A program made the translations under genes and the position numbers. Shown piece by piece: positions 6,315 through 30,724 of a DNA stretch of 44,489 bases (positions are counted from its first letter, which is position 1; every line of letters begins with the position of its first letter). Source of the DNA: Dehalococcoidia bacterium (GTDB taxonomy: Bacteria; Chloroflexota; Dehalococcoidia; GIF9; AB-539-J10); assembly GCA_003567655.1 (NCBI GenBank), contig PWZA01000008.1, positions 1 to 44,489 of the forward strand. Reading direction: 5' to 3'. Below the pieces are notes generated by a model. That model was not told where the DNA came from, made no database searches, and was given only the letters and a program-made list of their open reading frames with translations.

Positions 6315-7394
6315 TCACACTCCTCTCTTATAGAATCTCTTTTTAACTATGCGTGCCGGTGCAAGCTTGTTACGAAGCATTATCTCGATCCCGGTGCCGA
6401 TTGCAGACAGCTCAACGGGAACATAGCCGAGACCGATGTTGAGTCCCAGAGTCGGCGCATAGCCACCGCTGGTCACCTTACCGATTTCTAAACCAGAGGT
6501 ATAAATCGGGTATCCGGTGCGGGCTATTTCCCTTCCTTCCATTCGGAAACCGACCAGCTTGCGTCCAACACCCCTGCTCTTGATCTCAACGAGGGCTTCC
6601 CTGCCCACGAAGTCATCTCGCTCAAGATCGACCAGCCAACCCAGGTCGGCCTCGAAAGGATTGGTGCTCGAGTCCATATCCTGCCCGCAGAGCAGCATAC
6701 CGGCCTCTAATCGCAGGCTATCGCGTGCTCCCAGACCGCATGGTTTCACGCCCTGCTCGGTAAATGACTCCCATAGTGGCACTGCTAATGCTGCCTCGGC
6801 GATTATCTCAAAGCCATCCTCTCCCGTATATCCCGTTCGCCCCACTGAAACTTTCATATCGCCAATCTTAGTCTCTGCATAGCCGAAGCGCGGTAGATGA
6901 GTTACCCTGCCAAGGCTCTCCAGATCACAAGCTGCCGGCCCCTGCACCGCTATCATCACCGTAGAGGCCGACACATCCCTGATCTTGATATCGCGGTCGG
7001 AGCCCGCTCGACGGGTCAGCCAGTCAAGCTTACGCCTGGCATTGGCGGCATTCCAGACTATCAGGTAGCGATCGGCCCGGACACGAAACAGCCACAGATC
7101 ATCCAGAACCCCTCCATTCTCCAGACACATCATAGAGAGATGAGAGGAACCTACCTCCAAATCCTGTGCCGGCCTGGTCAATATAGAGTCCAGGAAGGAG
7201 CCTGCTTTGTTCCCCGTCACCCAGACCCGCCCCATGTCAGAGACATCGAATATACCGGCCGAATCCCTCACGGCCTTATGCTCCTCCAGAATTGACGTGT
7301 ACCACACAGGCAGCTCCCAGCCTGCAAAATCCATTATCCGTGCATTCAGCTTGCGGTGTACTTCGTTTAGAGGTGTCTTCTTCAACTCTTCCAT
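6315..7394 (-). CDS. gcvT: Aminomethyltransferase (T protein)
   Basis: 359 aa; FDVSDMGRVWVTG, GYTGEDGFEI, CGLGARDSLRLEAGM motifs. Confidence 0.96.
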   Translation of the reverse strand: MEELKKTPLNEVHRKLNARIMDFAGWELPVWYTSILEEHKAVRDSAGIFDVSDMGRVWVTGNKAGSFLDSILTRPAQDLEVGSSHLSMMCLENGGVLDDLWLFRVRADRYLIVWNAANARRKLDWLTRRAGSDRDIKIRDVSASTVMIAVQGPAACDLESLGRVTHLPRFGYAETKIGDMKVSVGRTGYTGEDGFEIIAEAALAVPLWESFTEQGVKPCGLGARDSLRLEAGMLLCGQDMDSSTNPFEADLGWLVDLERDDFVGREALVEIKSRGVGRKLVGFRMEGREIARTGYPIYTSGLEIGKVTSGGYAPTLGLNIGLGYVPVELSAIGTGIEIMLRNKLAPARIVKKRFYKRGV

Positions 7395-7449: not shown

Positions 7450-7470
7450 GAACTCGTTACTCACGAATTC
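7450..7470 (-). terminator. Candidate expression-platform hairpin downstream of glycine aptamer 2
   Basis: On minus strand GAATTCGT-GAGTA-ACGAGTTC (8 bp with one G-U), followed by TCCTGTTTTGTTT. Confidence 0.45.
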
Positions 7471-7472
7471 CC

Positions 7473-7665
7473 CCCCTGTCTCTTTCCCTGAGAGATTATC
7501 CGAGCACAATAGCCGCGGACTTACCCCGTCGGTGACCTCCAGCCGAGGTCTTTCCAGGGATTCAGTTTGCGGCAGTCCTTTTGCCTGAGAGTTTCGAAAC
7601 CGGGGCTCTCGACCCCGCTCCCTTGCACCTTCGGCTCCCTTATCAGGATCTCTCCTGCCGCAAAG
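7473..7665 (-). ncRNA. Tandem glycine riboswitch (two aptamers: ~7569-7662 and ~7473-7558)
   Basis: Minus strand GGCAGGAGAGATCCTG...GCCGAAGGTGCAA...AACTCTCAGGCAAAAGGACTGCC, then CCCTGGAAAGACC...CACCGACGGGGTAAG...AATCTCTCAGGGAAAGAGACAGGG; directly upstream of gcvT. Confidence 0.95.
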
Positions 7666-7683
7666 CAAGAATCACGCTTAATC

Positions 7684-28240: not shown

Positions 28241-28867
28241 ATGTATCCAGGTATTATCGGTAAGAAGATCGGCATGACTCAACTGTTCGAGGACAGCGGA
28301 GAGGCTGTTGCGGTGACTGTCATTCAGGCCGGCCCTTCAGTGATAACTCAGATTAAGAGTGCAGACAAGGATGGTTATAGCGCCATCCAGTTAGGCCTCA
28401 TCGTGGATGAGACTAAGAAGTGCCGGCTCAACTCGCCACAGAAGGGGCATCTCCGTGGGATAGAGAGGGTTTCCCATCTTCGCGAGTTCCGAACCTATGA
28501 CACCGAGTCAGTGAAGCGCGGGGACAAGGTAGATGTGAGCGCACTTAAGCGTGGTGACACGGTGACCATAACCGGCATCTCGAAAGGCAAGGGCTTTGCC
28601 GGCGTGGTGAAGCGACACGGTTTCGCGGGCGGACCGAAGAGCCATGGTCAGACTGACCGGCATCGTGCCCCCGGCTCCATTGGTGCGACCACATATCCCG
28701 GGCGGGTGTTCAAGGGGAAGCGCATGGCAGGACACATGGGTAATGCGAAGGTGAAGGCTCGTAACCTCGAGGTAGTTCAGACCGACCCGGAACGTAATCT
28801 GCTGTTGGTCAAGGGCGCAGTTCCCGGAGCCAACGGTGGTCTCTTGATAGTTGAGAAAGCGAGTTAA
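28241..28867 (+). CDS. rplC: Ribosomal protein uL3
   Basis: GIIGKKIGMTQLFEDSG, GKGFAGVVKRHGFAGGPKSHGQTDRHRAPGSIG. Confidence 0.98.
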   Translation: MYPGIIGKKIGMTQLFEDSGEAVAVTVIQAGPSVITQIKSADKDGYSAIQLGLIVDETKKCRLNSPQKGHLRGIERVSHLREFRTYDTESVKRGDKVDVSALKRGDTVTITGISKGKGFAGVVKRHGFAGGPKSHGQTDRHRAPGSIGATTYPGRVFKGKRMAGHMGNAKVKARNLEVVQTDPERNLLLVKGAVPGANGGLLIVEKAS

Positions 28868-28878
28868 GGAAACAGGAA

Positions 28879-29502
28879 GTGGAATTGCCAGTATATAGTC
28901 TGAAGGGCGAAGTTGTAGACCAGATGCAGCTTAGCGAATCCGTCTTTGGACTCCCTTTCAACGGAGCGGTAGTGCATCAGGCTATGACCAGACAACTGGC
29001 CAACAGGCGCCAGGGCACTGCTGCGACTAAGGCTAGAAGTGAAGTTAAGGGGAGCACACGTAAGCTATATGCCCAGAAGCACACGGGCAGAGCCCGAAGG
29101 GGGAACGTTAAGTCGCCCTTGCTAAGGGGTGGTGGAGTGGTTTTCGGCCCCAATCCACGAACGTATAGGCAAGCTATGCCCAAGAAGATGAGGAGACTGG
29201 CACTGAAATGCCTTCTCTCCGCCAAGGTCAGAGAAGGGAACATGAGACTGGTACAGGAACTCGACTTTGAAGAGGCAAGGACAAGATACATGGTAGCTAC
29301 TCTGTCGTCGCTCGGCAGTGATTCCTCGGTCTTGATTCTCACTGACCGTTCGACGCCGGCTGTGGTCAAATCAGCAGCCAATCTACCAAGAGTAAAGGTT
29401 CTACCTTCGGCTCTCGTCAACGTGCTTGATCTGCTTTCCCATGAGATGCTGATAGCAACCGTGCCGGCAATACGTAACATTGAACAGATCTGGGGTGAAT
29501 GA
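28879..29502 (+). CDS. rplD: Ribosomal protein uL4 (GTG start)
   Basis: GTAATKARSEVKGSTRKLYAQKHTGRARRGNVKSPLLRGGGVVFGPNPRTY. Confidence 0.97.
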   Translation: MELPVYSLKGEVVDQMQLSESVFGLPFNGAVVHQAMTRQLANRRQGTAATKARSEVKGSTRKLYAQKHTGRARRGNVKSPLLRGGGVVFGPNPRTYRQAMPKKMRRLALKCLLSAKVREGNMRLVQELDFEEARTRYMVATLSSLGSDSSVLILTDRSTPAVVKSAANLPRVKVLPSALVNVLDLLSHEMLIATVPAIRNIEQIWGE

Positions 29503-29503
29503 A

Positions 29504-29788
29504 GTGCATCTTTACGAAGTTCTGCGGCGTCCTCTGATTACAGAGAAGGCTACCTTATTGAAAGAGGGAGACAAGTACGCATTTGAAGTGGCGAACAAAG
29601 CCAGCAAGCCTCAGATCAAAGAGGCAGTGGAACAAGCTTTCAGAGTAAGAGTGAACGGTGTCAATGTGATAACTATGCCCGGAAAGACAAAGAGGTTCGG
29701 CCGTAGACAGGTGACTAGCTCATCCTGGAAGAAGGCAATAGTTACTTTAGCTCCGGGAGACAAGATTACATTCTTTGAGGGTGTTTAA
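29504..29788 (+). CDS. rplW: Ribosomal protein uL23 (GTG start)
   Basis: EVLRRPLITEKATLL, GKTKRFGRRQVTSSSWKKAIVTL. Confidence 0.96.
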   Translation: MHLYEVLRRPLITEKATLLKEGDKYAFEVANKASKPQIKEAVEQAFRVRVNGVNVITMPGKTKRFGRRQVTSSSWKKAIVTLAPGDKITFFEGV

Positions 29789-29883
29789 TGGGTTCAGTAA
29801 CCAAGTGGCGAAAACGGAAGATGTCCAAGCACAGGCACAAGAAGTTGCTTAAGAAGACTCGCTGGCAAAGGACACACAAGTAA
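29788..29883 (+). CDS. 31-aa bS22 / mS38 (AURKAIP1-COX24 domain) family protein; not in the supplied ORF list
   Basis: TAATG overlap with rplW stop; translation [31 protein letters not shown] matches the family pattern [24 protein letters not shown]. Confidence 0.88.
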
Positions 29884-29893
29884 GGAACGATAC

Positions 29894-30724
29894 GTGGGAT
29901 TGAAGACATATCGTCCAACCTCTCCAGGCAGGAGGTTCATGTCTGGTGCTACTTTCGAGGAGCTGTCTAAGGTAGCTCCTGAGAAGTCATTGCTGGTTAC
30001 GTTGAAGAAGAAGGGAGGACGTAACAGCCGGGGTGTCTTGACAGTCCGCCACAGAGGTGGGGGCAGTAAGCGTAAGCTGCGCCTAATAGACTTCAAGAGG
30101 GATAAGATAGGCGTCCCGGGAAAGGTTGCCTCCCTTGAATACGATCCTAACCGATCAGCCCGTATTGCCCTGATTCATTATGTTGACGGCGAGAAGCGGT
30201 ACATACTGGCTCCATTGGGCATTAAGCCCGGGGACACTATACGGTCGGGTGAGGATGTTGACATAAGAATAGGCAACGCTCTGTCGTTAGCTTCTATTCC
30301 AGTGGGCACCTCAGTGCACAATGTGGAATTCGAGCCCGGAAAGGGCGGAAAGCTGGTCCATAGCGCCGGAAACTCTGCCCGTGTCATGAGCAAGGAGGGC
30401 AAGTACGTTGTGCTGGAACTCCCGTCAGGCGAACTGCGTAAGTTTCACCAAAAGTGCTGGGCCACTGTGGGACAGATAGGCAATGTCGATCACGGAAGCG
30501 TAAAGCTGGGGAAAGCCGGGAGCAAGAGATGGCGCGGCAAGCGACCTGTGGTCAGAGGCTCTGCCATGACTCCTCGTGACCATCCACACGGCGGTGGAGA
30601 GGGTAAAGCCCCACTGGGGATGCCTCCGAAGACTCCGTGGGGAAAGCCAGCTTTGGGAGGCAAGACTCGCAGGCGTAAGACGTCAGACAAAATGATACTT
30701 AAGGGGAGAAAGCAAGATGTCTAG
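29894..30724 (+). CDS. rplB: Ribosomal protein uL2 (GTG start)
   Basis: [42 protein letters not shown]. Confidence 0.98.

Follow-up and report, generated by a model that had tools for sequence, protein, structure and literature searches.

A protein-coding gene for a peptide of 31 amino acids was found at positions 29788..29883 (+ strand) of the window, which is the whole stretch of 44,489 nucleotides that was analysed, and it lies inside the S10 operon between rplW and rplB. The product is very probably the small-subunit ribosomal protein bS22, co-transcribed with the S10 operon and translated between uL23 and uL2. The placement in the S10 operon is universal in the window's order.

Gene structure and initiation signals

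The S10 operon of the window was found to contain rplC (uL3, 28241..28867), rplD (uL4, 28879..29502), rplW (uL23, 29504..29788), the bS22 gene and rplB (uL2, 29894..30724), all on the + strand. The genes rplC, rplD and rplB were assigned from their open reading frames and homology, and rplW from the sequence and a PF00276 match at 29519-29773. The TAA stop codon of rplW (29786-29788) was found to share one base with the ATG start codon of bS22 (29788-29790) in a TAATG overlap (TTTGAGGGTGTTTAATGGGTTCAGTA), and the TAA stop codon of bS22 (29881-29883) was followed by a 10-nt gap (29884-29893) before the GTG start codon of rplB at 29894. An earlier, sequence-only reading of this DNA had given the coordinates and translation of the 31-codon ORF exactly, and had correctly described both the overlap with the rplW stop and the distance to rplB. 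It had also called the gene hidden, which holds for ORF tracks limited by length and does not hold for the NCBI model NF047430, which would now name the gene. The peptide was found to contain 14 K+R among 31 residues and no D or E, with a pI of 12.0 and MGSV at the N-terminus. Between 27800 and 31100, neither a promoter-like site on the + strand nor a terminator-like site was found. Elsewhere in the window, a glycine riboswitch of ordinary type with tandem aptamers (RF00504, 62.3 and 36.3 bits) was found at 7468-7667 on the minus strand, immediately 5′ of a gcvT-like gene on the same strand (6315-7394).

A Shine-Dalgarno-like GAGGG was present at 29777..29781 (+ strand), 6 nt 5′ of the bS22 ATG, with an anti-SD energy of -6.5 kcal/mol that was equalled by 21% of random windows. 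The same nucleotides are the C-terminal Glu-Gly codons of uL23 and were kept by many genomes without bS22, so that GAGGG alone is weak evidence of initiation in the window, and it was not accepted as proof. Among 54 distinct S10-embedded bS22 genes, drawn from the window's order and the locus of family f6, the start codon was ATG in 27, TTG in 26 and GTG in one. The members with a TTG start were found to contain a suitably spaced AGGAG or GAGG-like sequence, and the mean anti-SD energy was -8.1 kcal/mol for TTG-start genes, -5.9 kcal/mol for ATG-start genes and -4.3 kcal/mol for random windows. These free-standing spacer stretches of the TTG-start members are better evidence of initiation than GAGGG. 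A possible Shine-Dalgarno sequence of rplB, AAGGA (29882..29886, + strand), was found to overlap the bS22 stop codon, and its energy of -5.1 kcal/mol was not above background.

Coding selection and family assignment

The ORF was found to be intact in 20/20 same-genus genomes, and these copies comprised 20 distinct DNA sequences and only 9 peptides. The variable columns were distributed over codon positions 1, 2 and 3 as 8/5/25, and the mean dN was 0.047 and the mean dS 1.02, with dN/dS about 0.05. The predicted frame contained 41 synonymous versus 5 non-synonymous single-step codon pairs, whereas the other forward frames contained at most 10 synonymous pairs. Purifying selection acts on the predicted frame only, and neither frameshifts nor nonsynonymous drift, which the sequence-only reading had named as grounds for abandoning its proposal, were found among these copies.

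It can hardly be right that conservation of the rplW-rplB stretch reflects a non-coding or regulatory spacer, with an incidental frame. The spacers of r-protein genes can be regulatory and the ribosome-binding site of rplB overlaps the end of the bS22 stretch; however, this explanation is refuted by the substitution pattern given above, the start codon was found to vary among ATG, TTG and GTG only, and the stretch matches the profiles NF047430 and PF08213. Furthermore, the rplW-rplB gap of genomes without bS22 was usually of a few nt, and no Rfam match was found at the bS22 stretch between rplW and rplB.

The peptide was found to match the NCBIfam equivalog NF047430 'ribo_bS22' with 50.9 bits (cut-off 34) over model positions 1-31 of 31, and the Pfam family PF08213 COX24_C with 31.1 bits (cut-off 23). 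In the whole-genome searches, the ORF was the single match of NF047430 (E = 2.8e-12) and was recovered by PF08213 at 28.7 bits (E = 3.8e-6). The phmmer search against solved structures matched bS22 of the Mycobacterium and Cutibacterium ribosomes (E 7e-4 to 7e-9), followed by weaker matches to mS38 of the mammalian mitoribosome (E about 0.01-0.07). The peptide was identical to M. smegmatis bS22 at 17/29 aligned residues, and likewise to Cutibacterium bS22 of a solved 70S ribosome. The bS22/mS38-family assignment of the sequence-only reading, which had proposed a COX24_C profile search, was thus borne out by the cut-offs of two curated libraries and by the solved-structure relatives, and the mycobacterial sequence that it had given was correct across the 29 aligned positions. 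The bS22 family is already known, and the ORF is a further member and no new family.

Occurrence and gene order in related genomes

In the order-level set, bS22 was found in 59/60 genomes, and the exception was a genome of 67% completeness. The gene order rplC-rplD-rplW-bS22-rplB was found in 55/55 loci of the order whose contig covers both flanks, and these loci read uL3-uL4-uL23-bS22-uL2-uS19-uL22 as far as the contigs extend. Two further same-order loci reached a contig edge and contained uL2 downstream of bS22. The rplW-smORF-rplB synteny, which had been proposed as a check in relatives, is conserved throughout the window's order.

In a draw of 301 genomes over the phylum, a bS22 match was found in 75, of which 62 were over the cut-off. 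When 53 bS22 loci from this draw were inspected, the gene was S10-embedded in one only, G113 of family f6 of the same class; no S10 placement was found among the 47 loci of the phylum's other classes (0/47) or among the five other loci of the same class (0/5). A phylum-wide S10 placement was therefore rejected on the 47 loci from other classes, and the placement characterises the window's order and, within its class, a few further families, not the Chloroflexota generally. S10-embedded bS22 genes were found in the records JADFUZ010000133 (Chloroflexi bacterium C2.bin.9), MTNP01000028 ('Dehalococcoides sp. JdFR-54'), QYPU01000048 (Dehalococcoidia bacterium), JAUWQY010000003 (Dehalococcoidia bacterium CSMAG_2514) and JAUWQP010000012, and the S10 placement was absent from other Chloroflexi MAGs, from five Nitrospirae-type loci and from three Deltaproteobacteria-type loci. 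In the five Nitrospirae-type MAGs (L119, L120, L122, L123 and L125), bS22 was found upstream of an SMC gene in 5/5 and after a large gene of 900-955 codons in 4/5.

In a draw of 158 genomes over the class, bS22 was found in 57 and uL23 in 150. As judged from match positions and inspected regions, the S10 placement was present in the window's order (families f1-f4) and in families f6, f89, f90 and f101. In the other bS22-bearing families of the class, the gene adjoins unrelated genes, which were named by eye from translations: proline-biosynthesis-like genes in f115 and f100, a DNA polymerase III subunit-like gene in f109, and GAPDH- and dehydratase subunit-like genes in f107, f110, f114 and f120. 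In several other class members (L036, L068, L114, L116, L117, L213 and L221), a conserved hypothetical gene (..YHLxRPGSEL..) was found after the free-standing bS22, as a linkage that recurs.

Families such as f5, which has mostly single-contig genomes of 1.4-1.9 Mb and is presumably Dehalococcoides and kin, contained no bS22 match, and the rplW-rplB gap was at most 25 nt in the two f5 genomes inspected. Longer gaps were found in families f13 and f16. In family f13, the genome G215 contained a 77-nt gap with MGSQVKRRVKKRSK (7.9 bits), and the members L193, L195, L199 and L165 contained a common AGTCAA..GTTAA..AAAGG before rplB in gaps of 77-92 nt. A decayed bS22 relic in the f13 gap was considered and rejected, since the bS22 DNA profile scores shuffled gaps as high as real ones. 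In family f16 (L181, genome G262), a gap of 418 nt was found to hold an open frame (..YWDHYAAHWDEYDPATHLVQHIRCDARNWWMLLAGF..) that exceeds 100 codons.

Phylogeny of the placement

A tree of 91 rows and 888 columns was built from uL3-uL4-uL23-uL2-uS19. In it, the members sampled from the window's order grouped together (SH-aLRT 100), and every one of them was S10-embedded. Over the class, the S10 state was found to require five changes on the r-protein tree, with at least three of them forced by well-supported branches, and G361 of family f89 was placed in a separate clade. From these changes the rplW-bS22-rplB arrangement may have arisen several times independently and not once, a reading that is plausible but which we lean against; a tree with all S10-embedded rows as one clade was not rejected by the AU test (p = 0.345), the insertion site was identical in all cases, and one early insertion with repeated losses or relocations explains the distribution equally well. 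A single clade being compatible with the AU test, such an early insertion with later losses or relocations is a possible history.

Predicted function

The homologues occupy the h27/h44/h45 pocket of the 30S subunit and form an additional inter-subunit bridge (PMC10618245, PMC10085706, PMC5876184). In yeast, mS38 keeps h44 stable and helps the mitoribosome to assemble, to form bridges and to initiate on some mRNAs (PMC6582356). The same ribosomal role is expected for the window peptide because its size, charge and motif match bS22 and because AlphaFold2 gives a helix with a break. The model contained helices at residues 2-22 and 25-29 with the break near residues 23-24 (mean pLDDT 89, pTM 0.45), which for a 31-residue peptide is a weak test and tells little of the function; it agrees with the bent helix that has been reported for bS22 and mS38 (PMC10618245). 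By homology, the gene whose coding selection, family membership and operon position are given above would encode a highly basic, mostly helical peptide lodged in the 16S rRNA pocket of h27/h44/h45 below the decoding centre, where it would touch 23S rRNA, add an extra inter-subunit bridge and stabilise h44. From the gene anatomy, the 1-base overlap with rplW and the 10-nt gap before rplB may couple bS22 production to the synthesis of uL23 and uL2, and such coupling would supply bS22 in roughly stoichiometric amounts. bS22 is dispensable for ribosomes in general, since many genomes of the same class were without it.

It is very unlikely that the family is right and the main role extra-ribosomal, for example as an RNA chaperone or antimicrobial peptide, with the operon only securing high expression. 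When free, the bS22 of C. acnes inhibits both the growth of bacteria and translation in cell-free systems (PMC10085706), but the 30S pocket is the location in all solved structures of the family (PMC10618245, PMC5876184), no signal or export context was found, and the order-wide retention in an r-protein operon together with the very low dN/dS better fits a core ribosomal part.

The case for the ribosomal protein, which is sequence-based, puts bS22 in a large, mostly metagenome-derived order of the Chloroflexota, inside the most conserved r-protein operon, and the placement independently supports, from the genomic side, a core role of bS22 in the ribosome. It also suggests that r-proteins are missing from the inventories made for these genomes by gene callers with a length limit. 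Since relatives of one class contain bS22 in the S10 operon, elsewhere or not at all, they offer a natural comparison that could address how bS22 affects decoding, initiation and the binding of antibiotics near h44. A wider reading, on which belief and doubt are nearly balanced with doubt slightly ahead, is that bS22 is a full stoichiometric r-protein of this large Dehalococcoidia order, S10-embedded and coupled to uL23 and uL2, perhaps with feedback control of the operon, and more broadly an old, widespread bacterial r-protein that was often moved or lost and was overlooked with its about 30 codons and TTG or GTG starts.

Comparison with known systems

The ribosomes of actinobacteria, Bacteroidetes and a spirochaete (Borrelia) have been seen to contain bS22, which was recognised as unexpected cryo-EM density and was expected to turn up in further lineages (PMC10618245). 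No report of a Chloroflexota bS22 or of an S10-embedded one was found in the open-licence literature, in agreement with the sequence-only reading, which knew of no S10-embedded description of the family, and the S10-operon placement of bS22 appears unreported.

The bS22 of M. smegmatis and C. acnes (NF047430; PDB 5o5j, 8crx and others) was found to be like that of the window in the MGSV start and the highly basic composition. It differs in length (33 aa versus 31 aa in the window) and in containing V or I where the window bS22 contains W26 in the TRWQR motif, along with K/R exchanges. The window gene itself lies inside the S10 operon. Borrelia burgdorferi bb0822 is, like the window gene, a tiny un-annotated gene (PMC10618245), and both lineages use non-ATG starts, GUG in Borrelia and, in the window's order, TTG in many members. 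In the Borrelia study, bS22 was the single ribosomal protein that mass spectrometry did not identify (PMC10618245), and the window peptide is likewise very rich in K and R. For the bS22 of Borrelia burgdorferi and Flavobacterium johnsoniae the same pocket is predicted (PMC10618245), whereas the placement and lineage differ.

The window ORF is over the Pfam cut-off for the C-terminal domain of mS38/AURKAIP1/Cox24 (PF08213); mS38, however, is a mitochondrial protein that is encoded in the nucleus and has a long N-terminal part, whereas the window ORF of 31 aa abuts uL23 without any extension. The protein eL41 of archaea and eukaryotes was described in the same pocket (PMC7005279, PMC5876184) and is a structural analogue, likened here by description. 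The E. coli protein S22/SRA shares with bS22 the old name 'S22' only, and is a different, stationary-phase protein confined to enterobacteria (PMC3353972).
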